Position numbers and translations under genes: made by a program. A stretch of DNA of 64,000 nucleotides, taken from positions 1 to 64,000 of the forward strand of contig JAFGII010000054.1 in assembly GCA_016929695.1 (NCBI GenBank), given 5' to 3'. The DNA comes from Ignavibacteria bacterium. Lineage in GTDB: Bacteria; Bacteroidota; Ignavibacteria; Tepidaquicellales; Tepidaquicellaceae. The notes below the pieces were generated by a model. That model was not told the origin of the DNA. It saw nothing but the letters and a program-made list of their open reading frames with translations, and did no database searches. The first letter of the stretch is position 1. Every line of letters begins with the position of its first letter. Of the stretch, positions 45,964-60,959 are shown in pieces.

Positions 45964-46608
45964 ATGAAAACTAAAGCGGTAATTTTTTTGAACGGTGTTT
46001 TTCCCCACACAAAGGTAATATCCGCAAATATAAATACCGCCGATTATCTGATAGCCGCAGACGGTGCCGCAAACTTACTGAAAGACATCCAAATCACCCC
46101 TGACGTCATAATTGGCGACCTCGATTCGATAGAGAAAAACGTCCTGAAATACTTTCTTGCTAAGGATGTTCCGGTGATTAAATATACCGAGCAGGAAACC
46201 ACCGACTTTGAAAAATCGCTTAACTTTGTTTTACAAACAGCTATAAAAGATGTTATAATTTTCGGATTCACGAGTTTAAGACCTGATCACAGTCTGAACA
46301 ACTTCAGCGTACTCAAAAGGTATTATAAGAAATTAAACATCAAGTTCATTGACGATACTTTCATAATAGAATTTATAAAGAAAAAAGTAAGTTTTAAATA
46401 CAGGAAAAACCGGTTGATTTCGTTACTGCCATTTCCTGGGGCGAGAGGTATCACGACAAAAGGATTACGGTATTCATTGAATGACGAATCGCTTTCTCTC
46501 GGAGTAAGGGAAGGAACATTGAACGTTGCGACTTCGGAAAACGTTACTGTGTCTTTCAAGACTGGTGATTTGATTTTGTTCAGGAAGCATTTTATCGGTT
46601 TGAGATAA
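45964..46608 (+). CDS. thiN: Thiamine pyrophosphokinase
   Basis: 214 residues. YLIAADGAANLLKDIQITPDVIIGDLDSI contains the conserved catalytic acidic segment, TEQETTDFEKSLNFVL the substrate region, and the C-terminal beta-roll includes TKGLRYSL and NVATSENVTVSFKTGDLILF. It converts thiamine and ATP to thiamine diphosphate. It is monocistronic and divergent from the BatA-type gene. No TPP-riboswitch motif was seen upstream. Confidence 0.92.
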   Translation: MKTKAVIFLNGVFPHTKVISANINTADYLIAADGAANLLKDIQITPDVIIGDLDSIEKNVLKYFLAKDVPVIKYTEQETTDFEKSLNFVLQTAIKDVIIFGFTSLRPDHSLNNFSVLKRYYKKLNIKFIDDTFIIEFIKKKVSFKYRKNRLISLLPFPGARGITTKGLRYSLNDESLSLGVREGTLNVATSENVTVSFKTGDLILFRKHFIGLR

Positions 46609-46739: not shown

Positions 46740-48155
46740 TTGAAGATAACCTTAGACATATCCGATATAATTATTATAGCCGCTTTCTTTTTTATAACAT
46801 CATATATCGGAATAAGAACAAAAAACAGAGATAATTCCGAACTTGATTATCTTATTGCCGGCAGGATGGTTACACTTCCCGCATTTGTCGCAACTCTTGT
46901 ATCCACATTTTACGGCGGAATTCTCGGAATAGGTGAATTTACTTACAGGTACGGAATTTCAAGCTGGTTTCTGAATGCATTCCCCTATTATGTATTCATT
47001 ACGATTTTTGCATTTTTCCTCGCAAAGAAAATAAGAAAAACGGAACTATGCACAATCCCGGAAAAACTCGGTCTGAAATTCGGAAAAAGCGTCAGTGTAT
47101 TCAGCGGATTAATGATTTTCATACTCTCAACACCCGCTCCTTATGTATTTATGATAGGAATTATAATCAATCTGATATTTGGAATTTCGCATATCTGGGG
47201 AATGCTGATAGCAAGTATGTTCTCGGTTATATTTATTTATTCAGGCGGTCTTAAAAGTGATATCAAGGTGAATATCATAGAATTTATTGTTATGTTTCTC
47301 GGATTCGCTGTAATTCTGCCGTTTTGTTTTATTGAATTCGGAGGACTGATATCGCTCATTGATTCATTGCCTTCCGATTTTGTTAATCCGGCAGGCGGTC
47401 ATTCGGCTTTATATATTATTTCATGGTTTATTATAGGTTCGTGGGCACTGGTTGACCCGTCTTTCCATCAGAGATGCTATGCCGCAAAAGATGAAAAAAC
47501 TGCTAAAAACGGAATTTTAATTTCGCTCTTATTCTGGTTCATTTTTGATTTTATGACGACAACTGCAGGATTGTATTCTGTTGCACATATTAAGGGACTT
47601 GCAAATCCGGTCGAATCCTATCCTGCACTTGCGGAGAAAATTCTGCCGCCTGTCGCAAAAGGTTTTTTTCTGACGGGTATACTTGCCACTATTCTTTCAA
47701 CCTTGCATTCGTATTTGTTTATTTCCGCCTCGACTTTCAGTGTTGATATAGTTTCCAAATTTTCCAATCTGAAAAGAAACATTAATGATTATACCAAAGC
47801 AGGAATTATCGTTTCCGCTGTTATATCACTTGTCGTCGCGGTCATTATACCTTCAGTAGTGGAAATCTGGTATACCTTAGGTTCCCTTACTATTCCTCCT
47901 TTACTTACCGGTGTTATACTTTCATATACCGATAAAATCAGAATCCACAGAATTTATGTATTGCTTGCTATGGTATCGTCATTTACGATTTCATTGTTTT
48001 CATTCATCTCAGGTTATATTAACAAAACGGATAAAATTCCGGGTTATTTATTCGGAATAGAACCTATGTATCCGGGTTTGATACTCTCAATTATATTTAT
48101 TTTTTCAGGTATGATAATTAACTTTCTGGATAAAAGAAAAAACACAAATGTTTAA
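46740..48155 (+). CDS. Sodium:solute symporter family protein
   Basis: 471 residues with about thirteen membrane helices. DYLIAGRMVTLPAFVATLVSTFYGGILGIGEFTYRYGISSWF is the SSS signature region, and GILATILSTLHSYLFISASTF corresponds to the sodium-site helix 8 region. The substrate is unknown. The start is a TTG at 46740 with MKITLDISDIIIIAAFFFI at the N-terminus. The 3' end overlaps the patatin gene by 8 bases, so the two are probably co-transcribed. Confidence 0.85.
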   Translation: MKITLDISDIIIIAAFFFITSYIGIRTKNRDNSELDYLIAGRMVTLPAFVATLVSTFYGGILGIGEFTYRYGISSWFLNAFPYYVFITIFAFFLAKKIRKTELCTIPEKLGLKFGKSVSVFSGLMIFILSTPAPYVFMIGIIINLIFGISHIWGMLIASMFSVIFIYSGGLKSDIKVNIIEFIVMFLGFAVILPFCFIEFGGLISLIDSLPSDFVNPAGGHSALYIISWFIIGSWALVDPSFHQRCYAAKDEKTAKNGILISLLFWFIFDFMTTTAGLYSVAHIKGLANPVESYPALAEKILPPVAKGFFLTGILATILSTLHSYLFISASTFSVDIVSKFSNLKRNINDYTKAGIIVSAVISLVVAVIIPSVVEIWYTLGSLTIPPLLTGVILSYTDKIRIHRIYVLLAMVSSFTISLFSFISGYINKTDKIPGYLFGIEPMYPGLILSIIFIFSGMIINFLDKRKNTNV

Positions 48156-50895
48156 AATACGGTATATATTAATATTAATATTGTGTTTAATTTTTGAGGC
48201 ATCTGTCGCCCAGACAGATAACGACTCGAATTTTACTCTTCTTGATTTACCGTTGAGAAATAAGTATAATTTAGATACTAATTTATTCAATATATTTCCG
48301 AAAAAATATAACAGAAAAAAAGTTGCACTTGTTTTAAGCGGCGGGGGTGCGAGAGGATTTGCACAGTTGGGTGTATTAAAATCGTTTGAGAAAAATAATA
48401 TTGACTTCGATTTTATTGTAGGTACAAGTATAGGAAGTGTTATAGGCGGATTGTATTCTACCGGATACACAACATTGGAAATTGACAGTCTGGCTAAAAA
48501 TGCAGATTGGAAAGACCTTGTGGTAATATCAAATAAATATTCGCGCGAATTCCTGTTCCCGGAGCAGAAAAGAATTCAGGATATGAATTTAATTACACTG
48601 TCACTCGACGGTCTCGTACCCGTAATGCCTACTTCTCTGACATCAGGTCAGCAGATAACTGAATTTCTTAATGAACTGTTTCTGAATTCACGTATTAATA
48701 ATACGGATAATTTTTTCAATCTGAAAATTCCCTTTTTTCCTGTTGCAACTGAACTCAAAAAAGGAGAAAGAATTGTATTTACTGAAGGAAATATTACTGA
48801 ATGCGTAAAAGCCTCATTTACATTTCCACTGATTTATTCTCCGACAAAAATCATGGATATGGATTTGATAGACGGCGGGTTAACTGCAAATATTCCGGTA
48901 GATGTTGCATTTGAGAAGGATGCCGACTACGTTATTACTATAAATTCGACCAGTCCGCTGAAAACAGAAGAAGAACTGAAAGATAATCCGATTAATACGG
49001 CAGACCAGATTCTTTCGATATCAATGGCACAGTTGAATAAATATCAACTTGAAAAATCGAGTTTCACGATAACTCCGGATGTAGGAAATCATAAAGCCGA
49101 GGATTTCATTAATCTTACAAATCTTATTAATATAGGTGAACTGTATGCGGACAATTCTGCCGGTAAATTAAAGTATGAACTCGATTCACTGGAAGCGTCC
49201 GCTTCCGAGCAATATAATAATTTTCTGACAAACCCAATTGTAATTTTTAGTTCCGGCATAATTCCGGACAGCATGAAAACAGTAATAACGGAAGAGCAAA
49301 ACCTGAAATTCGTTAAATATATACAGATAGAAAGAACTATGAGAAGCATATATGACCTCGGATACTTCAGTGATGTATATGCGAAAATTTACAGGGAAAA
49401 CGGAATCCTGAAACTTAAATATTATGCGGTAAATAACCCCGTCTTAACCGATATCAGTTACACTTCACTATCAACTGCAGCAGATAAACATATCCTGAAA
49501 TTCCTCACCGAAAATATAAACGACATTGTGAACCTGAAAAAAACTGAACAACTCTATTTTGATATACTCGGAATTTTAAGAAATGAACAATTATCCTCCG
49601 TTGATATAACAGAATTCTATCTTAATTATAATACAGGAATTTTAAACATTAGTTTTAGTAAAGGAATTATAAATCAGATTAATTTAACAGGCAATCTCAA
49701 ATCGAATCCTGACCTCGTTCTAAGAGAAATTTCAATAAAATATTACGAGACTCCAAAATTCAGTGATATAAAATACAGTTTAAAAAATATCAGCGGTACG
49801 AATCTCTTCTCACAGGTAAGTTTATACAGAACTACAGATTCAATTTCAGGCAAGAATATAATGAATATCAGTCTAGTTGAAAGAAGCAACCGCATACTGA
49901 GTTTTGCGCTTAGAGTTGATAATGAAAGAAATCTTCAGTTGCTCGGTGATATCAGGGACAGAAACTTATTCGGTACAGGAGCCGAATTCGGTCTGATTGC
50001 CAGCGGAGGATTGAGGTCACGAGAATACAAATTTGAATTTCAGTCCAACAGGCTTTTTAAAACATACTATACATTTAATTTATCCGGCTATTATAATTTT
50101 ATCGATTATTTTGATTATAAAGAGAATATCAGTACCGACAATTTATCATTTGACAGAACAAAGACAGGTGAATTCAGAGATATCAGATATGGTCTAAAAT
50201 TTCTCGCAGGAACGCAGATGGAAAAAATCGGCACGATATTCGGTCAGATTACAATGGAAAAAATAAAAATTAAAGACCTCGACAAAACAAATTACGCCTC
50301 TGATATCAATGCTTTAAAATTCAGATTCGGAGGTAAAGTGGATACACGTGACCAATATCCGTTTCCTGTAAAAGGAACAGAAATGGATTATTATTTCGAA
50401 ACTGCACAAAACCGGCTTCAGGGAAACGAAAATTACTCAAAACTATTCATTGGATTCGGTTATTATTTTAATCTGTTTGAAAGATTAAACTTGAAACCTA
50501 AATTTTGTATCGGGTTTGCCGATCTAACCACACCCTTTGCAGAGCAATTTAATTTGGGCGGGGAAGATATATTTATGGGAATGCTTGAAAACCAGTTAAG
50601 AGGAAGGCAGATATTTGCTACATCAGTCGAATTCAGATATAAATTCCCTTTTAAAATTTTCTTCGACACATACCTCGCTTTTAGGTATGATATTGGTAGG
50701 ATATGGGAAAAATCAGAAGATATAAGATTCAAGGATTTGAGGCACGGTCTCGGACTATCCGGACAATTTGATACACCGATTGGTAAAGCAAGTTTTTCCG
50801 TAGGACGTTCATTTTTAATCAACAGCGGATTAACAGCAAATTCATTTATCTGGGGTCCTTACACTTTTTACTTCAGTCTCGGATATGACTTATAA
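48148..50895 (+). CDS. Patatin-like phospholipase fused to an outer-membrane beta-barrel
   Basis: 915 residues: signal peptide (1-21, ending VAQ), patatin domain about 55-290 with oxyanion SGGGARG (64-70), nucleophile S94 in GTSIGS and the DGG dyad near 242, a linker with POTRA-like folding (about 380-540), then a BamA-type barrel to the C-terminus. This is the PlpD/FplA (type Vd) layout, in which the barrel may anchor or export the lipase. It overlaps the symporter by 8 bases and precedes the PP2C pair by 8 bases. Confidence 0.88.
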   Translation: MFKIRYILILILCLIFEASVAQTDNDSNFTLLDLPLRNKYNLDTNLFNIFPKKYNRKKVALVLSGGGARGFAQLGVLKSFEKNNIDFDFIVGTSIGSVIGGLYSTGYTTLEIDSLAKNADWKDLVVISNKYSREFLFPEQKRIQDMNLITLSLDGLVPVMPTSLTSGQQITEFLNELFLNSRINNTDNFFNLKIPFFPVATELKKGERIVFTEGNITECVKASFTFPLIYSPTKIMDMDLIDGGLTANIPVDVAFEKDADYVITINSTSPLKTEEELKDNPINTADQILSISMAQLNKYQLEKSSFTITPDVGNHKAEDFINLTNLINIGELYADNSAGKLKYELDSLEASASEQYNNFLTNPIVIFSSGIIPDSMKTVITEEQNLKFVKYIQIERTMRSIYDLGYFSDVYAKIYRENGILKLKYYAVNNPVLTDISYTSLSTAADKHILKFLTENINDIVNLKKTEQLYFDILGILRNEQLSSVDITEFYLNYNTGILNISFSKGIINQINLTGNLKSNPDLVLREISIKYYETPKFSDIKYSLKNISGTNLFSQVSLYRTTDSISGKNIMNISLVERSNRILSFALRVDNERNLQLLGDIRDRNLFGTGAEFGLIASGGLRSREYKFEFQSNRLFKTYYTFNLSGYYNFIDYFDYKENISTDNLSFDRTKTGEFRDIRYGLKFLAGTQMEKIGTIFGQITMEKIKIKDLDKTNYASDINALKFRFGGKVDTRDQYPFPVKGTEMDYYFETAQNRLQGNENYSKLFIGFGYYFNLFERLNLKPKFCIGFADLTTPFAEQFNLGGEDIFMGMLENQLRGRQIFATSVEFRYKFPFKIFFDTYLAFRYDIGRIWEKSEDIRFKDLRHGLGLSGQFDTPIGKASFSVGRSFLINSGLTANSFIWGPYTFYFSLGYDL

Positions 50896-50903
50896 AATTT
50901 AAT

Positions 50904-53405
50904 ATGAACTATCTGAAAATAATACCTGAAAATACATTGAAGCTTTTTATAATAATAATATCAGTATATACATTACTGTTAAGCGGTGTTATTTTTCTGA
51001 AAGCATCTTTGACAGATAGTTTAACGATGGATGATGTTTTTATTGATTATTCAAATCCCTTGAATCACCGCAATATGGGAGTGGTAATATGGGAATTGAG
51101 ACCCGGTGGAAATACGGAAAAAGCAGGTCTAATGAAAGGCGATGTGATTTTAAAAATCAACAATTATAATATTAGAGACGTAAACCAGTACAGAAATTTA
51201 CTAAATCAATATGAGGCAGGAGATACACTTGAATATTTAATCAAACGAAAAAACGAAAATTTTACCGTAACAATACAGGTATATAAATACTTTCATCTGA
51301 TATTCTATATATTTTCGCTCCTCGGTTTCGGATTTCTATTTAATTCCATCATAGTCGGACTGTCCAAACCGAATGAATTAACCTCCTTTTTATTTTTCCT
51401 GCTTGGAGTTTCTGCCTGTCTCGGTTTCAATATATTCGGTGGCGGAATATATTATTCGGGATATGGGTCATTCATTTTCAATAATTTCTGGTTTGGGAAT
51501 GTGATGTTCGATCCTTTAATACTACATTTCTTTCTGACATTCCCGGTTAAATATGAATTCCCGAAAAGAAAGTATGTAATTCCCATAATTTACATTTTTC
51601 CTGTTTCTTTGTTTTTTATTAATTTTTTTATTTCTTCATTTAACACCGGTAATATAATTTTTACAATTACTTATTTTCTCGGGTATGTTCCTTTCAGTTT
51701 TCTCTTTCTCGGAATCCTGTTCTTCGTGATTTCTTATTTCAGAATCAAAGATGAAGAAAAAAAGAAACCTCTGAAAATTATATTCATCGGTTTGATTTTA
51801 GGTCTTATAGGTTTTCTTTATTACTTTTTTGTATTCAATCCATACATATCTTCCAATTACACAAGCGTATTACCAAGGGTTCCCGCACTGCTTGTTCTGG
51901 CGATTCCCGTTACATTTTCCTATTCCATTTTAAAATACAAAATATTGCACTCAGGTTACTCGCTTAAACGAAACATCATAATTATATTTGTTTCCCTTAT
52001 TTTAATTCTTATTTTCCTTATAATTTTTAATATTCTTAGTTCGTTAATTTTCAAGCATTTTGGTCAGCAGGAAAAACTTATTATACTGTTTGCTGTATTA
52101 ATTCTGATTTTTCTGTTTGATTTCATTAATAAGGCAATAAGAAAAAAAATTGACAACAAATTATTAAGAAATACTGCTTTACAAAAAAAATTATATCTTG
52201 AGTTTACAGAAAGTCTTCCTTATTTTAAGAGAGCAGACGATATTTCGGAAAAACTTATTACTACAATAAAAAATTTATTTAGAATTGACAATGTTAAGTT
52301 ATGGATTAACCGTGATGAATATCCGCTGCTGTATAATGAAATAAAAAATTACAATTTCATATTCAATATTCGGAATGTAGTAAAGAAGGATTTATTTAAG
52401 AACAACCCGCATATAATAATCTCAAAAAGCGATAAATTATTCAGTCAGTTCAACCCACCGCCTGATACTTTAAAAATATACATATTTTCCTTCGGGAAGA
52501 AAGACGTACTTACCGGAAGCATTATTTTATATATAAATGAATACGAAATGATTTTTTCTGACACTGAAACAGAACTCCTTGAGACAATATCATATCATTC
52601 GGGAGCAGCTCTTGAGAATGCAAGATTAAGGCTGGAGGAAATTAAGAAACTGAGATTTGAGGAAGAAATGGAAATAGCAAAACACATACAAAACAGTTTA
52701 ATACCAAAGATAGACATTATCGGTAAAAACTATGAAATATCCGCATATAATTCCGGCTCGGATTCGATAAGCGGAGATTTCTTCGATATAATCAGGTTCG
52801 ATGACGGAAAATTCCTGCTGGTTGTTGCGGATACATCAGGAAAAGGTATTCCCGCTGCTTTGCTTATGTCGAAGGTTCAGTCTATAACAAGATTCGCGGC
52901 AAAATATTACCTTACTCCGAAAGAAATTTTAAAAGAATTAAATAAGAATATTTACAGTGAATTTGAAAAAAACACGAGAGTCACGATGGTTCTTTCACTG
53001 TTTGACATAATCAATAGTAAGGTCACGATTTCGGGAGCCGGACATAATCATCCGCTGCTCCTTGAAAATAATTCTTTGAAATTAATAGAAACAGGCGGAA
53101 TAGCTATGGGTATTGAAAATGAAAAATTTTTCAATCCTGAAATTAGCGAAAAAATAATAACTCTTAAGAATAATTCTGTATTTCTGTTTTACAATTGCGC
53201 TTCTTCTGAACCAAACGGGAAAATAATTGGTGATAATGTTTTTAAATTAATCATGAATTTTATGCAGAATCATCCTACGGACGATTTAAAAATATTACAA
53301 CAAAATCTGGTAAACTTCGTATATAAATATATGCAAGACAGTAAATATAATGAAGATTTAACAACAGTTTTAATAAAAATTAAAACGGATTTCAGAAATG
53401 ATTAA
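50904..53405 (+). CDS. PDZ/membrane/GAF protein with a degenerate PP2C (SpoIIE/RsbU-type) domain
   Basis: 833 residues: one N-terminal helix, a periplasmic PDZ-like domain (about 55-130; ELRPGGNTEKAGLMKGDVILKINNY), seven or so membrane helices (about 133-410), a GAF-like region (about 430-570) and a PP2C domain (about 590-830). SGDFFD and ADTSGKGIPAA are kept, but the usual Y-S-D-G-x-T-E reads YNCASSE (763-769), with the metal-binding aspartate replaced by C765. The final DDxT is EDLT. It may be a regulatory pseudo-phosphatase of the next gene, which overlaps by 8 bases. Confidence 0.83.
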   Translation: MNYLKIIPENTLKLFIIIISVYTLLLSGVIFLKASLTDSLTMDDVFIDYSNPLNHRNMGVVIWELRPGGNTEKAGLMKGDVILKINNYNIRDVNQYRNLLNQYEAGDTLEYLIKRKNENFTVTIQVYKYFHLIFYIFSLLGFGFLFNSIIVGLSKPNELTSFLFFLLGVSACLGFNIFGGGIYYSGYGSFIFNNFWFGNVMFDPLILHFFLTFPVKYEFPKRKYVIPIIYIFPVSLFFINFFISSFNTGNIIFTITYFLGYVPFSFLFLGILFFVISYFRIKDEEKKKPLKIIFIGLILGLIGFLYYFFVFNPYISSNYTSVLPRVPALLVLAIPVTFSYSILKYKILHSGYSLKRNIIIIFVSLILILIFLIIFNILSSLIFKHFGQQEKLIILFAVLILIFLFDFINKAIRKKIDNKLLRNTALQKKLYLEFTESLPYFKRADDISEKLITTIKNLFRIDNVKLWINRDEYPLLYNEIKNYNFIFNIRNVVKKDLFKNNPHIIISKSDKLFSQFNPPPDTLKIYIFSFGKKDVLTGSIILYINEYEMIFSDTETELLETISYHSGAALENARLRLEEIKKLRFEEEMEIAKHIQNSLIPKIDIIGKNYEISAYNSGSDSISGDFFDIIRFDDGKFLLVVADTSGKGIPAALLMSKVQSITRFAAKYYLTPKEILKELNKNIYSEFEKNTRVTMVLSLFDIINSKVTISGAGHNHPLLLENNSLKLIETGGIAMGIENEKFFNPEISEKIITLKNNSVFLFYNCASSEPNGKIIGDNVFKLIMNFMQNHPTDDLKILQQNLVNFVYKYMQDSKYNEDLTTVLIKIKTDFRND

Positions 53406-55932
53406 AAGGCACAGGTCAAGATTCTGGATAATATTATTCTCAGTATATTGTTTTCTGTTATCCTTGAATGTATTTCATACTGTTATGATTCAGAACAGAA
53501 TGACAACGGATGACTGTCTGTGGACTTATATTTATGATACCGCATCAAAAAGATATACATTTTTAATTTCGGATATTATTCCGGGCGGAGTTGCGGATTC
53601 CGCAGGTATAAAAGACGGTGATGTACTGCTTGAAATCGAGGGATTGTCCTTTATGAATATGGAAGATGCAATGAGAATTCTGCAACCTTATCAGAATGAG
53701 TTTGTCCGATATACAATCCTTCGTGAAGGAGAAATAATCTACAAGGATATCTGGGTATATAAACATCTGAATATACTTTTTCTGATATTCTGGCTAATGG
53801 GAACTGGTTTCCTGATTGTAGGTTTCATAGTGGGCTTTTCAAAACCGTCTGAATTATCTTCAAAAATATTCTTCTTCCTCGGATGCTGTGCATCTCTGGG
53901 ATTTGTGATGTACGGAAATGCAAACCTTTATGTTTATGATTTTGATAAAATATTTGAAAATCTCGGCGATTTTGCTAAGTTCTTTCTCTTCATCAACCAT
54001 TTAGCGGCGATGCTTGCATTTCAGGCAATTCTGTTTCATTTTTTTGCCACGTACCCGAAAAAATTTGATTTTAAGGGAAAAAGAAAGTTCGTTATCATTT
54101 CGGTATATGTAATTGCATTTTTGCCTTCTCTTTTTACGATGTTTTTTAATCTGCTGAGCGATAACACAATTTTCAGGTTGGGTTATTTTATTATTTATGT
54201 GCTTCCTGCTGTTATTATTTCGGTTAGTCTGATTATGTTTATGAAATCATACAGGCAAATTGAGGACCAGCAAAACAAGAAATCTATCCGTATTATAAGA
54301 AACGGTTTCATAATTGCCGCATTCGGAGCGGTTTATTTTATTATTTATCAGATTTTTTTCTCGAAACCCATTTTCCTTGTAAATAATTTATTACTTCTCC
54401 CCATAATAACAGTTCTTGCAATACCGCTTTCATTCGGATATTCAATCATTAAATACCGCATTCTCGATACCGAATATCTGATTAAACGGGGCATAGTCTT
54501 CGGAATAGTTTCCTTCATTATAATAGTTGTTTATCTTTCACTTGTTTATCTGATAGATTCATACATAGGAAGAAATATGGAATTTAACCGGCAATACCTT
54601 ATTGTTGCATTTATAATATTCGTTACGTTTACGTTTGATTTCGTTAACAATAAAGCAAAAGATTTCGTGGATAAGATTTTCTACAAGGAACGGTATAATT
54701 TCAGGAAATCTCTTCTGGAATTTTCACATCAATTGTCCTATATAAAAAATATAGATGAAATATTGATAAGAATAAGAGAAGAAGTAAACAAATCACTCGG
54801 AATAAACATACTGAAAATATGGATAACTGATGATAAGTATCTGAAAATGATAGATAAAACAAGTATCCCGGAAAATTTCCTGACCAACTATGAAGAAGTA
54901 AAAGTAATTACAAATAAACTTTTTCATAAATCAGCCGAGCCAGCTATGCTCTCATATGCTTTTTACAGGGATTACAATCTTAATGAAAAAGAAATTGAGA
55001 TAATTAAATACTGCGGTATTAATCTTGCGGTTCCTCTGTTTATTCATAATAACCTTATAGGCAGTTTAAATTTCGGTCCGAAAATATCCGGTAAAGCATT
55101 CTCCGATGAAGATTTAGACCTTCTGAGGACAATTTCCGTACAAACCGCAATTTCAATAGAAAATTACAGGCTTGAGAAGGAAGAGTTGAGTAAAAAGAAA
55201 ATAGAGGAGGAACTCCTGATTGCAAGAAGAATTCAGACCGGACTGCTGCCTGAAAGTAATTTTAACAGCGATAAAATTAATATATCGGGTATATCTGTTC
55301 CGGCAAGAATAATAGGAGGGGACTTTTTTGATGTAATAAAATCAGACGACAATAAGATTTATTCTCTTGTTGCCGATGTTTCAGGGAAAGGGATTCCGGC
55401 AGCTATTTATATGTCAAAAGTTCAGTCAGTAATACAGTTCGCAACAACAGTAATAGAAAATCCGAAGGATATTCTGATTGAAATAAATAAACAAATATTC
55501 GAACAGATTGAGAGAAAATATTTTATTACAATTATATTTCTGATGTTCGATTTTAATAATAATCTGATGAAAGTATGCAGGGCCGGGCATCTGCCGATGA
55601 TTCTTTTCAGAAACGGTAAAACTGAAAAAATCAATCCCCGAGGAATCGGGCTTGGACTCGAAAAAGGAAAAATATTTGAAAAAGAACTCGAAGAATTTAT
55701 CATACCAATTAAGAAAAATGATGTTTATTTTATATATTCTGACGGCTTAACCGAGAGTTTTAACGAGCAAAATGAAGAATTTGGACTTGAAAGATGCATC
55801 AGGATAATAGAAGAAAATATTAACGGTGAACCTGAACATGTTAAGAGATTAATTATTTCAGATGTTCACGGTTTTATGGGTTCAGCCGAACAACACGACG
55901 ATATAACATTTGAAATTATAAAAATAAAATAA
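53398..55932 (+). CDS. PDZ/membrane/GAF/PP2C serine phosphatase (RsbU/SpoIIE-type)
   Basis: An 844-residue paralogue of the preceding protein with the same order: helix, PDZ (about 55-120; IIPGGVADSAGIKDGDVLLEIEGL), membrane helices, GAF (about 430-580) and PP2C. All catalytic motifs are intact: GGDFFDV, ADVSGKGIPAA, YSDGLTE (D782) and HDDITF. RsbU-type phosphatases dephosphorylate anti-sigma-factor antagonists, but no RsbV/RsbW-like partner lies nearby. Overlap with the upstream paralogue and a one-base gap to purB suggest one transcript. Confidence 0.88.
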   Translation: MIKRHRSRFWIILFSVYCFLLSLNVFHTVMIQNRMTTDDCLWTYIYDTASKRYTFLISDIIPGGVADSAGIKDGDVLLEIEGLSFMNMEDAMRILQPYQNEFVRYTILREGEIIYKDIWVYKHLNILFLIFWLMGTGFLIVGFIVGFSKPSELSSKIFFFLGCCASLGFVMYGNANLYVYDFDKIFENLGDFAKFFLFINHLAAMLAFQAILFHFFATYPKKFDFKGKRKFVIISVYVIAFLPSLFTMFFNLLSDNTIFRLGYFIIYVLPAVIISVSLIMFMKSYRQIEDQQNKKSIRIIRNGFIIAAFGAVYFIIYQIFFSKPIFLVNNLLLLPIITVLAIPLSFGYSIIKYRILDTEYLIKRGIVFGIVSFIIIVVYLSLVYLIDSYIGRNMEFNRQYLIVAFIIFVTFTFDFVNNKAKDFVDKIFYKERYNFRKSLLEFSHQLSYIKNIDEILIRIREEVNKSLGINILKIWITDDKYLKMIDKTSIPENFLTNYEEVKVITNKLFHKSAEPAMLSYAFYRDYNLNEKEIEIIKYCGINLAVPLFIHNNLIGSLNFGPKISGKAFSDEDLDLLRTISVQTAISIENYRLEKEELSKKKIEEELLIARRIQTGLLPESNFNSDKINISGISVPARIIGGDFFDVIKSDDNKIYSLVADVSGKGIPAAIYMSKVQSVIQFATTVIENPKDILIEINKQIFEQIERKYFITIIFLMFDFNNNLMKVCRAGHLPMILFRNGKTEKINPRGIGLGLEKGKIFEKELEEFIIPIKKNDVYFIYSDGLTESFNEQNEEFGLERCIRIIEENINGEPEHVKRLIISDVHGFMGSAEQHDDITFEIIKIK

Positions 55933-55933
55933 T

Positions 55934-57229
55934 ATGATTCCAAGATATTCAAGAAAAGAAATGTCAGAAATCTGGTCTGACGAAAATAAGTTTAAAATAT
56001 GGCTCGATATCGAAATACTCGCCTGTGAGGCGCAGAACAAACTCGGACTGATACCCGACTCATCGTTTAAAAAAATTAAAACAAAAGCAAATTTTAATAT
56101 TCAGAAAATCTTAAAACTTGAAGAAATATTAAAGCATGATGTTATCGCATTTCTGACAAATGTCGCAGAATATATCGGAAAGGATTCGAGATTTATTCAT
56201 ATGGGTATGACGAGTTCGGACGTCCTTGATACATGCCTTTCGGTTCAGATGAAACAAGCAGGTGAATTAATTCTTAAAGATCTCTATAATCTGAGAAAGG
56301 AACTCGGAAGAAAAGCAAAAAAATACAAACTTCTACTTCAAATAGGCAGAACACACGGCGTTCACGCTGAACCGATTACTCTCGGATTAAAATTTGCTCT
56401 TTGGTACGACGAAACCAACCGTAATATTGAAAGATTAAAAGAAGCAATAAAAAATATTTCTGTAGGTCAGATTTCCGGAGCTGTAGGTACTTATGAGCAT
56501 ATATCACCTTTTGTTGAAAAATATGTCTGCAAAAAACTTGGATTAAAAACTACAAAAATATCAACTCAGATTTTACAAAGAGACAGGCACGCTCAATATA
56601 TGACGACTCTCGCAATCATTGCATCTTCACTCGAAAAATTTGCCACAGAAATCAGACATCTTCAGAAAACAGAAGTACTTGAACTTGAAGAGCACTTCTC
56701 AAAAGGACAGAAAGGTTCTTCCGCAATGCCTCACAAAAAAAATCCCATAACTTCTGAACAAATATCAGGACTTGCAAGAGTTCTAAGGGGAAATTCTCTA
56801 GCCGCACTTGAAAATATTCCCTTGTGGCATGAAAGAGATATATCCCATTCATCTGCAGAAAGAATTATAATCCCTGACTCTGCAATATTAATAGATTATA
56901 CTTTAAATAAATTTGCTAACTTAATTAAATATATGGTAATTAATAAAAAGAATTTAGAAAACAATATAAAGTTAACTAAGGGCTTGTTCTTTTCACAGAC
57001 TTTGTTATTGAAATTGATTGAAAAAGGATTCAGACGTGAAGAATCATATAAAATTGTTCAGGATATTGCACTGAAGTGCTGGAATGATAGAAGCGATTTT
57101 AAATCAGCCGTTATATCAAATCCGGGTATAAGAAAATTTTTATCGGAAGAAGAAATTGATATAATATTCGATTATAAAAACTCTTTGAAATATGTGAATT
57201 TTATTTTTAACCGCTTAGGATTGAAATAA
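55934..57229 (+). CDS. purB: Adenylosuccinate lyase
   Basis: A 431-residue fumarase-superfamily enzyme acting twice in purine synthesis. MIPRYSRKEMSEIWSDENKFKIWLDIE at the N-terminus, GMTSSDVLDTC, GRTHGVHAEPITLG and the signature GSSAMPHKKNPITSE are all present. It is one base downstream of the PP2C gene, an unusual partner, and converges on lexA with an 87-base AT-rich gap. Confidence 0.95.
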   Translation: MIPRYSRKEMSEIWSDENKFKIWLDIEILACEAQNKLGLIPDSSFKKIKTKANFNIQKILKLEEILKHDVIAFLTNVAEYIGKDSRFIHMGMTSSDVLDTCLSVQMKQAGELILKDLYNLRKELGRKAKKYKLLLQIGRTHGVHAEPITLGLKFALWYDETNRNIERLKEAIKNISVGQISGAVGTYEHISPFVEKYVCKKLGLKTTKISTQILQRDRHAQYMTTLAIIASSLEKFATEIRHLQKTEVLELEEHFSKGQKGSSAMPHKKNPITSEQISGLARVLRGNSLAALENIPLWHERDISHSSAERIIIPDSAILIDYTLNKFANLIKYMVINKKNLENNIKLTKGLFFSQTLLLKLIEKGFRREESYKIVQDIALKCWNDRSDFKSAVISNPGIRKFLSEEEIDIIFDYKNSLKYVNFIFNRLGLK

Positions 57230-58276: not shown

Positions 58277-59377
58277 CTATTTAAAGACTATCTTCCCCTC
58301 CTCCGTTATTTCAATTTCGTTCTCAGGAAAATCTTTTAAACTTAAATTCCTCATAAGAATCGCTGCACTGTTTTTTTTATCCGGTACCGGTATGCCTCCC
58401 TTAATTTGTTTCGCCGAAATAATTTTCCCTTTTAGAAACTCTCCTTTTCCGTTTATGAATAATTTTATTATCGGAGCATATCCCTGAGCTCCGTTAAGAG
58501 GAAATTTTGCATAGGTACAGAAATTTCCGAGACTATATACTATCAATCTGTTTTTGTATAATTCAATTGCCCTCGGGACATGTGGTCCGTGTCCGAGTAT
58601 TAAATCAGCTCCGGCATCAATAAGTTTATGAGAAAATCTGTAAATATCCCCTCTTAGTTCATCACCGTAATATTCTTCTCTTTTTGGAACGCGAAGTGCA
58701 GATAATCCTTCTGAACCGGAATGAACTGAAACTATAACAATATCAGCGCTCTTCTTCAATTCTTCCACCATTTTTGCGGCAACAACCGGAGAATTAAGAT
58801 GATGATTTCTCGCAAATCCTATCAACCCGATTTTTAAATTTTTATAATATAAAGTATCAGAAGGATATTCATTAAGTCCGAAAAATAATATTCCGTTATT
58901 GCGCAATGTTTCCTTTGTTGATTTTTTTCCTGCCGGACCCATATCATTAGAATGGTTATTGGCAAGATTCATTGCATCAAATCCCGCATCCTTAAGATAT
59001 CTTGCATAATGTACGGGTGTACGAAATGAAACACATCTTTTACATACTTTCGGAATTCCTCCTGAATTCAGTAGTGTTCCTTCAAGATTTCCAATTGTAT
59101 AATCGGCATCCGAAAGAATATGCTTAACTGCATCAAAAATATATTTCCCGTCATCGGGAGGAAGTACATTAGATGGATAATTACTGCCCATCATAATATC
59201 CCCTACTCCGATTATGGATATCGTATCACTAAATAATAATGTATCATTTGTATATTCTGATAAAGCATCGTTATTAATCTCTTCTTGACTTGCGTCATTG
59301 CAGGAATAATGAAACAGAAAGTTCAGAAGAAATAATATCTTTATGAATAAGATATTTTTATCTGCTGATAATTTCAA
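58277..59377 (-). CDS. CapA-family (PgsA-like) metallophosphatase-fold lipoprotein
   Basis: 366 residues. Hydrophobic KNILFIKILFLLNFLFHYSC at the N-terminus with C27 fits a lipoprotein signal. The PGA_cap domain shows SIIGVGDIMMGSNYP, DYTIGNLEGTL, NLANNHSNDMG and VSVHSGSEG, plus LGHGPHVPRAIELY. CapA proteins take part in poly-glutamate or other surface-polymer synthesis. This is a calcineurin-like fold. The start is a TTG at 59377 that overlaps the upstream kinase by 20 bases, and no ATG lies early enough. Confidence 0.85.
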   Translation of the reverse strand: MKLSADKNILFIKILFLLNFLFHYSCNDASQEEINNDALSEYTNDTLLFSDTISIIGVGDIMMGSNYPSNVLPPDDGKYIFDAVKHILSDADYTIGNLEGTLLNSGGIPKVCKRCVSFRTPVHYARYLKDAGFDAMNLANNHSNDMGPAGKKSTKETLRNNGILFFGLNEYPSDTLYYKNLKIGLIGFARNHHLNSPVVAAKMVEELKKSADIVIVSVHSGSEGLSALRVPKREEYYGDELRGDIYRFSHKLIDAGADLILGHGPHVPRAIELYKNRLIVYSLGNFCTYAKFPLNGAQGYAPIIKLFINGKGEFLKGKIISAKQIKGGIPVPDKKNSAAILMRNLSLKDFPENEIEITEEGKIVFK

Positions 59378-60959
59378 TAGTATTAGACACTATTAATTTG
59401 TCCCTGCTCGTGAATAAAGATACTCTGTAGGTTCCGGGAGAATCGAATTTTAGTTCTTTCTTATTCTGAAAATAAATATAATTAAAGTCAGGTTCTACGC
59501 TGAAGTCTACTGTTTTAACCAATTTTTCAGGTATGGATTCTCCCGCTGAATTTTTTATCTTAACAATTTCAATATATACACTCTTAACTCCGATTTCAAC
59601 ATCAGCAGGTCTTAAATCTACCATTACGGTCAGCCAGCCTGTTGTAAATCTGCTGCTTACGTTGACTTCTTTTCCGTTTTTATAGTCTTCACAAAAATAT
59701 AATTTTGCACCTCGGATTCCTTTAATGTCCGTTCCATAATCATCTTTAAGACTTGTTTCTTCTTCTGACTTTTTTGTTCTCTTAGGTTCTGTTTTCTCTG
59801 TCTTATCGGTTCTTTCCCTCTTTTCGGTAATAACAGGGTCGTCTTTTTCTTCATTTAAAAGAGATGCAACATACATTCCTCCAAGAACGAACAAAGAAAT
59901 AATTATCAGTACTATTATGATACCTCCGATTATATAGCCGGTTTTTTTCGGAGGTTTACTTCTGGGGACATTTGAACCGTACGGACTTTGATATTGCTGA
60001 CTTGAATTCACGGAACCGATTTGATTTGAAGTATAATCATATTTTTCAAATACCGGAGGGGGCGGTAATGTTGAGCCTGTTCCGCTTACTACAGTTTTTT
60101 GTTCATATATCGGCTGTGCGCTAATAACCGTAGTCTGTTGTATTCCCGGTTGTAATGCTTCCCTGAATTCATCACAACTTCTGAATCTGTCATCGGGGTA
60201 TTTGGATGTCGCCTTATTAACTATGTATTCCATCCTTTCAGAAACTGCCGGATATATCGTTCTTATCGGTGGAAGAGGTTCTTTTACAATTTTTTCTTGT
60301 ATTAAATATTCACTCGTAATATTTTCGTCATAAGGTTTTTTCCCGCACAGCATTTCAAATAATGTAACTCCAAGGGAATATATATCCGTTCTGAAATCTA
60401 TAGGTCTTCCAAGTATCTGTTCCGGACTCATGTAGTATATTGTACCTATTTTTGTACCTGTCTTAGTCAGATTTATATCTCCATGAAGTATCTTCGCAAT
60501 ACCAAAATCAAGAATCTTTGGAACATCTCCTGCTTGAAGTAATATATTTGAAGGTTTGATGTCCCTGTGAACTATGCCTTTCTTATGTGCGAAACTGAAA
60601 GCACTTAGTATCTGTCCGAAGATGTTTATGGAACGCGCTTCAGGTATGGCGCCCGTTAAATTTCTTACAATATGCTCAAGTGAATTTCCTTCTATGTACT
60701 CCATTATAATTACAAGATTATCCTCGAACTCGGTAAAGTCGTATAACGTAACGATATTCTGATGTGTGAGAGTCGACAGAACTTTTGCCTCATTTATAAA
60801 TCTCTGCCTCAGTTCCTCATTAAATACAAATTCGGGATTCAGAACCTTGACGGCAACTTTTCTTTCCAGAGTTAAATGACGGGCAAGATATACTTTTCCC
60901 ATACCTCCTTCCCCGATTAAAGATATGATTTCGTAATTCTGGATTTTTTTGCCTATCAT
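59358..60959 (-). CDS. Transmembrane Ser/Thr protein kinase (PknB-like)
   Basis: 533 residues. Kinase domain about 9-270: glycine loop GEGGMGKVYLA (16-26), K38, HRDIKPSN (131-138) and DFG (151-153). A proline-rich linker follows, then one membrane helix (341-367) and an acidic/basic linker (370-400). The extracytoplasmic domain (about 405-533) ends with FDSPGTYRVSLFTSRDKLIVSNTIEI, an Ig-like sandwich rather than PASTA repeats. It probably senses an envelope signal. It lies between NamZ-like and CapA-like lipoprotein genes on one minus transcript. Confidence 0.9.
   Translation of the reverse strand: MIGKKIQNYEIISLIGEGGMGKVYLARHLTLERKVAVKVLNPEFVFNEELRQRFINEAKVLSTLTHQNIVTLYDFTEFEDNLVIIMEYIEGNSLEHIVRNLTGAIPEARSINIFGQILSAFSFAHKKGIVHRDIKPSNILLQAGDVPKILDFGIAKILHGDINLTKTGTKIGTIYYMSPEQILGRPIDFRTDIYSLGVTLFEMLCGKKPYDENITSEYLIQEKIVKEPLPPIRTIYPAVSERMEYIVNKATSKYPDDRFRSCDEFREALQPGIQQTTVISAQPIYEQKTVVSGTGSTLPPPPVFEKYDYTSNQIGSVNSSQQYQSPYGSNVPRSKPPKKTGYIIGGIIIVLIIISLFVLGGMYVASLLNEEKDDPVITEKRERTDKTEKTEPKRTKKSEEETSLKDDYGTDIKGIRGAKLYFCEDYKNGKEVNVSSRFTTGWLTVMVDLRPADVEIGVKSVYIEIVKIKNSAGESIPEKLVKTVDFSVEPDFNYIYFQNKKELKFDSPGTYRVSLFTSRDKLIVSNTIEIISR

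Follow-up and report, generated by a model that had tools for sequence, protein, structure and literature searches.

A tandem pair of membrane PDZ-PP2C paralogs in an Ignavibacteria bacterium: an intact SpoIIE-type phosphatase and a probable pseudo-phosphatase

The locus and its two proteins

The window analysed here is a stretch of 64,000 nucleotides from an Ignavibacteria bacterium, lying on contig C84 of genome G000 (2.78 Mb, 124 contigs). It contains two adjacent plus-strand genes, here called A (50904-53405; 833 aa) and B (53398-55932; 844 aa), whose products share one architecture: a first transmembrane helix (TM1), a PDZ domain, about nine further membrane helices, a GAF-like part, a long helix and a SpoIIE-type PP2C domain. 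All metal ligands are intact in B; A is a probable pseudo-phosphatase. The initial annotation had described paralogs with the same domain order and an 8-base overlap (53398-53405, plus strand), and the open reading frames, which lie at exactly these coordinates, together with Pfam and the AlphaFold models (mean pLDDT 79 for A and 84 for B), bear this out.

The pair lies within a tight run of plus-strand genes: a sodium:solute symporter (46740-48155), a patatin-Omp85 outer-membrane protein (48148-50895), A, B, and a purB-like gene (55934-57229; a putative adenylosuccinate lyase, by resemblance), with successive junctions of an 8-bp overlap, an 8-bp gap, an 8-bp overlap and a 1-bp gap. These neighbours are conserved, as is a thiamin pyrophosphokinase gene (45964-46608, plus strand). 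In the window's family (f1), wherever contigs were long enough, the locus runs from pyrophosphokinase through symporter and patatin/Omp85 to one or two PDZ-PP2C genes, then purB and, on the minus strand, LexA, a few rearrangements occurring at the two ends; 25 of the 29 f1 genomes have the locus, each with one or two copies. The A/B pair, a tandem duplication, recurs across a single family of Ignavibacteria, in a fixed place between patatin/Omp85 and purB. A patatin-Omp85 gene stands upstream of PDZ-PP2C as its neighbour in f1 and also in a second family, f4 (L209, L212, L214-L222, L225, L226, L230), which suggests that this outer-membrane phospholipase-like protein and the phosphatase are functionally linked. 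A Hanks-type Ser/Thr kinase gene (59358-60959, minus strand) is also near, outside the conserved synteny of the relatives examined, and its product could in principle act as the opponent of a phosphatase.

Both PDZ and SpoIIE (PF07228) exceed the Pfam cut-offs in A and in B; GAF does so only in B (PF01590, 23.3 against 22.4 bits), and the Pfam scan of A did not report it, although that region of A aligns and is modelled with an alpha/beta fold. The PDZ domains lie at residues 57-126 of A (51072-51281; PF13180) and at model residues 41-122 of B (53518-53763). The SpoIIE/PP2C domain of A (52800-53381) matches PF07228 over its full length (positions 1-191/192; about 89.4-93.6 bits) and still has Asp625, Asp643 and its switch helices, while that of B (55348-55926) scores about 129.8-133.6 bits. 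With about ten helices and positive loops on the inner side, the predicted topology is N-in; the loops SKPNE, KYEFPKRK, KDEEKKK and KILHSGYSLKRN would then face the cytoplasm and the PDZ domains the periplasm, as had been proposed from the outset. In the models the linker helix and switch helices alpha1 and alpha2 lie at 553-599, 649-668 and 672-686 in A and at 570-616, 666-685 and 689-700 in B; these elements, through which the proteins are predicted to dimerise, are thus modelled in both.

The metal site of A and its divergence

Where B reads YSDGLTE (with Asp782) and DDIT (with Asp834), A reads YNCASSE (763-769) and EDLT (817-820), exactly as first reported. With SpoIIE chain 3T91 as the aligned reference, D746 corresponds to Cys765 of A (codon TGC, 53196-53198) and Asp782 of B (55741-55743), and D795, the first Asp of DDxT, to Glu817 of A (codon GAA, 53352-53354) and Asp834 of B (55897-55899). 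The equivalents of D610 and D628 are kept in both proteins (Asp625 and Asp643 in A, Asp642 and Asp660 in B). Since the Mn of SpoIIE is coordinated by D628, D746 and D795 (PMC3517971), with D610 as the would-be ligand of a second metal (SpoIIE structure papers), two of the three ligands of one metal are altered in A, and not only the single aspartate named in the heading of the initial annotation. Two glycines are gone too, Gly734 and the one that follows the metal Asp, and together these changes make it likely, as judged from sequence, that A has lost phosphatase activity. The model of A falls below pLDDT 50 at residues 768-774, in the SDG loop, against values of mostly 80-90 for the strands and helices of PP2C around it; B has no such gap. 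We considered a compensated frameshift at YNCASSE and rejected it, as no SDG-like reading is present in the other frames.

The divergence of A is uneven. Expressed as retention, the identity of a segment relative to normal A-A identity, A is best kept in the PDZ domain (0.90), TM2-9 (0.83), the switch helices (0.82) and the linker helix (0.72), and is eroded in GAF (0.65), the helix after the last TM (0.51), the DDxT segment (0.51) and the SDG segment (0.47), the last two having fallen to about 20% identity; B retains 0.72-0.94 in every segment. Counted by conserved positions, A is altered at 12 of 39 in PP2C and at 14 of 26 in the post-TM helix and GAF. In neutral simulations, started from an intact relative and run to the same divergence (200 runs), A would acquire about 20-32 stops per 830 codons and no run was stop-free; when only the last 88 codons were considered, stop-free runs numbered 4-12 of 200. 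The open frame of A thus argues that selection has acted on the gene as a whole, with its metal-binding end perhaps free to drift.

Relatives of the pair

Named database relatives come from Ignavibacteria, MAGs labelled Chlorobiota/Bacteroidetes and Melioribacteraceae, and the protein family is widespread in the class, with a match at E <= 1e-90 in 177 of 294 sampled genomes (some related paralogs counted). In the tree, the upstream copies and window A form a clade with moderate support, and B is joined by the downstream copies and by most of the single ones; both copies of genome G013 are loosely placed. The longest branch of the family is that of window A (1.9-2.5, against 0.1-1.0 for the other A-clade rows), and that of B is also raised (0.9-1.1). 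No closer relative of A, such as would show whether Cys765 is conserved, came from the 29 family genomes searched (nearest at 38% identity) or from a contig scan (best tblastn 30%) from which records very near the window's were possibly omitted.

Among readable proteins the SDG/TDG aspartate is retained by 49 of 51 from the family set and by each of the 71 true homologues from the class set (about 120 in total; one 60.9-bit chance alignment is omitted from the class-set count). It is lost only in window A and in the upstream copy of G013, which reads YTNGLVAQ (D to N) and retains DD. In this second copy retention drops to 0.58 in the SDG segment, with 0.83-1.04 in the other PP2C segments and, outside the SDG segment generally, 0.76-1.04 except for TM1 (0.58). 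A single loss shared by the two was considered and set aside: the constrained tree is not favoured, though not rejected (p-AU 0.09), and the residues differ, with C in window A and N in G013.

The initial annotation had also seen a phosphatase/pseudo-phosphatase couple and had asked after it in relatives. The two genes are indeed encoded together, and the pair is conserved family-wide, but the A ortholog is catalytically intact nearly everywhere, and so the probably dead state of A is not part of the system as conserved. The pair is also missing from two sister species of the same genus (G001 and G002), whose patatin-purB gaps of 46 and 78 bp hold no remnant of either gene; this loss implies that the A/B branch is dispensable. 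A related membrane PP2C protein of 967-973 aa (G000:C66:3210-6113; L080, L081) is kept in the sister species without the pair. At L060 (G006:C383) both tandem copies have frame breaks, and the C-terminus of A continues in another frame; these copies, taken as sequencing error or pseudogenes, were left out of our counts.

A periplasmic motif and a partner-switching context

Directly after TM1, B carries a periplasmic D-D-C-L-W motif (residues 38-42; 53509-53523, plus strand). The general form, D-x-C-x-W, is present at this place in 39 of 39 class-set orthologs, which is the independent figure as the wider motif-bearing set was selected by the motif itself, and in all readable f1 B-type and single copies except that of G007, which has a short deletion. 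Its Cys (C40 in B) is the sole Cys conserved throughout the motif-bearing set; a lone periplasmic Cys so near the membrane hints at a disulfide-linked dimer or at thiol sensing. The motif precedes the PDZ domain of none of the 15 A-clade members, window A included, and the upstream copy of G013 has DSTLW at the site, without the Cys. Its absence from the whole clade indicates that this sensor element was lost earlier than the metal ligands of window A.

An anti-sigma pathway had been suggested for the pair, with a search of the genome for STAS/HATPase partners. Five STAS genes and three HATPase_c_2 genes of G000 score over the cut-off, but none is near the pair: the nearest are on contigs C14, C62, C47 and C87, and a local partner-switching module was rejected, the pair's neighbours being patatin and purB. 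The link comes instead from gene context in other families. At 16 loci in families f10, f22 and f26, a single-copy PDZ-PP2C is the last gene of the cassette PP2C(~690) - STAS - HATPase - PP2C(~559) - PDZ-PP2C (at one of them, L240, the first PP2C was not detected), pointing to a role of these proteins in STAS/HATPase partner switching. At these loci (L079, L228, L232, L233, L235-L246) three different SpoIIE phosphatases thus surround one STAS/HATPase pair, and in G051 the cassette is preceded by an ECF-type sigma gene (Sigma70 r2 and r4).

Contig C14 of G000 carries a comparable module, STAS - HATPase - PP2C of 574 aa. Its STAS protein (G000:C14:20190-20534) is 47-61% identical to the cassette STAS proteins, its PP2C is a relative of the cassette PP2C559, and a relative of the STAS protein is present in 29 of 29 f1 genomes, those without the pair included. 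From this context the C14 STAS protein is the best candidate substrate, and B is likely to dephosphorylate a STAS anti-anti-sigma protein.

What A may do beside B

We propose, at a probability of roughly 0.45, that A is a non-catalytic regulator or retained partner of an active B. B would be an active RsbU/SpoIIE-type Ser/Thr phosphatase whose cytoplasmic PP2C domain may be controlled by the periplasmic D-x-C-x-W plus PDZ unit and the membrane bundle, its substrate likely being the phosphorylated STAS anti-anti-sigma protein of the C14 module. A would be a tandem duplicate from which the D-x-C-x-W sensor motif was lost first, throughout the A clade, and metal binding afterwards, in the window's lineage. 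It could be joined to B by contacts in the membrane bundle, the linker helix and the switch helices, and would in this way set the amount of active B:B dimer, or which signal gets to that dimer. More tentatively, and with clearly lower odds, the dead paralog without the Cys-Trp motif may pair with the live one that bears it as a brake or signal selector of partner switching. The architecture, the missing ligands, the pattern of conservation, the synteny and the cassette of other families are observations; from these we infer the loss of activity in A, the A-B heteromer, the substrate and the direction of control.

The targeted erosion of A, low in the metal segments and high in the PDZ, membrane and switch-helix segments, supports the partner reading, as do the alteration of two of three metal ligands in A alone, the SDG-segment drop and TNG of the G013 upstream copy, the poorly modelled SDG loop of A, a gap that the model of B does not have, and the frame kept open against the neutral expectation. 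SpoIIE-type PPM phosphatases dimerise via alpha0/alpha1/alpha2 (PMC5468089, PMC12143880), in keeping with an A-B pair, and the 16 cassettes, with the universal C14 STAS protein in f1, support the proposed substrate. Against it, the 14 of 26 helix/GAF positions lost in A could weaken pairing, its last 88 codons are possibly near-neutral and both genes are gone from G001 and G002; moreover, the C14 STAS module has a PP2C of its own and is unlinked to the pair in G000.

Decay of A is the strongest competitor, though one we consider distinctly less probable. The sensor branch would be dispensable in the genus and the upstream duplicate non-functional, heading for the deletion seen in the sisters; its open frame would be a recent leftover, or kept only because translation of A aids the overlapping B. 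The clean absence of the pair in the two sister species, the long end branch of A (with that of B raised), the broad loss in the GAF/helix part and the near-neutral C-terminal segment would all fit; 833 codons without stop or frameshift despite such divergence, the sparing of the PDZ domain, membrane bundle and switch helices, and a similar full-length copy without the Asp in G013 would not.

It is rather unlikely that A has kept phosphatase activity at a modified metal site, in which Glu817 (perhaps with Cys765 or water) replaces Asp and gives low or metal-shifted activity. Asp625 and Asp643 are kept, D to E is conservative and the SpoIIE domain still scores 89-94 bits, but both altered residues ligate the same metal, the glycines are lost, the loop is poorly modelled and the SDG and DDxT segments are strongly diverged.

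The known systems nearest to the pair bear on a further reading, to which we give slightly less weight again: that A is an adaptor, independent of B, binding a STAS or sigma-like target without dephosphorylation as E. coli RssB does. The latter is a stress-signalling protein with a PPM fold lacking active-site residues and with the same switch elements, and it establishes that a PPM domain can persist as a bacterial pseudo-enzyme (PMC12143880, PMC7226468, PMC5468089), and so bacterial pseudo-PPMs are already a known kind; eukaryotic PP2C pseudophosphatases, TAB1 and PHLPP2 (PMC5468089, PMC12002173), also keep the fold without catalysis, as predicted for A, in unrelated pathways and domain settings. 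E. coli RssB is soluble and C-terminally truncated, has a receiver domain and delivers sigma S to ClpXP, whereas A has a full-length PP2C domain, lies in the membrane, has no receiver (by Pfam and model) and is encoded next to an active twin. RssB structures are the top fold matches, but the best of these show the P. aeruginosa protein, a catalytically active enzyme. By fold and by sequence the PP2C domain is matched best by P. aeruginosa RssB, the SiaA PP2C and M. tuberculosis Rv1364c, which differ from A and B in their sensor domains; none of the three is degenerate, to our knowledge.

Least probable by far is an error of sequence or assembly: it would be consistent with a single metagenome-type draft genome, with the remaining readable A-clade members intact, and intact SDG relatives had at first been named as its sign, but the changes in PP2C and helix/GAF are ordinary substitutions in an intact frame, and the intact relatives therefore reflect lineage-specific change in A.

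The pair resembles the RsbU/SpoIIE/RsbP-type phosphatases (PF07228) in that its PP2C domain has switch helices, follows a long helix and is joined to a variable N-terminal sensor, and their STAS/HATPase partners are matched here by gene context. Unlike these, its sensor is a periplasmic D-x-C-x-W plus PDZ unit with a ten-helix membrane part and GAF, and it comprises two tandem paralogs, A without two metal ligands. Our literature search on the combination of PDZ with RsbU/SpoIIE found no relevant paper and no description of a PDZ-PP2C family, in agreement with the original remark that no system of this layout had been described, a remark that E. coli RssB qualifies as regards the pseudo-enzyme itself. 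The novelty lies in a membrane pair of one live and one probably dead protein, and in the sensor family marked by PDZ and Cys-Trp. If A does tune B, the locus would present a dead and a live SpoIIE-type phosphatase side by side in nature, and would offer a direct genetic test of whether phosphatases of this type are generally controlled at dimerisation through the linker and switch helices. Concrete handles on the signal that the PDZ-PP2C family senses, and on the target that it switches, are given by its invariant D-x-C-x-W motif and by the STAS cassette.
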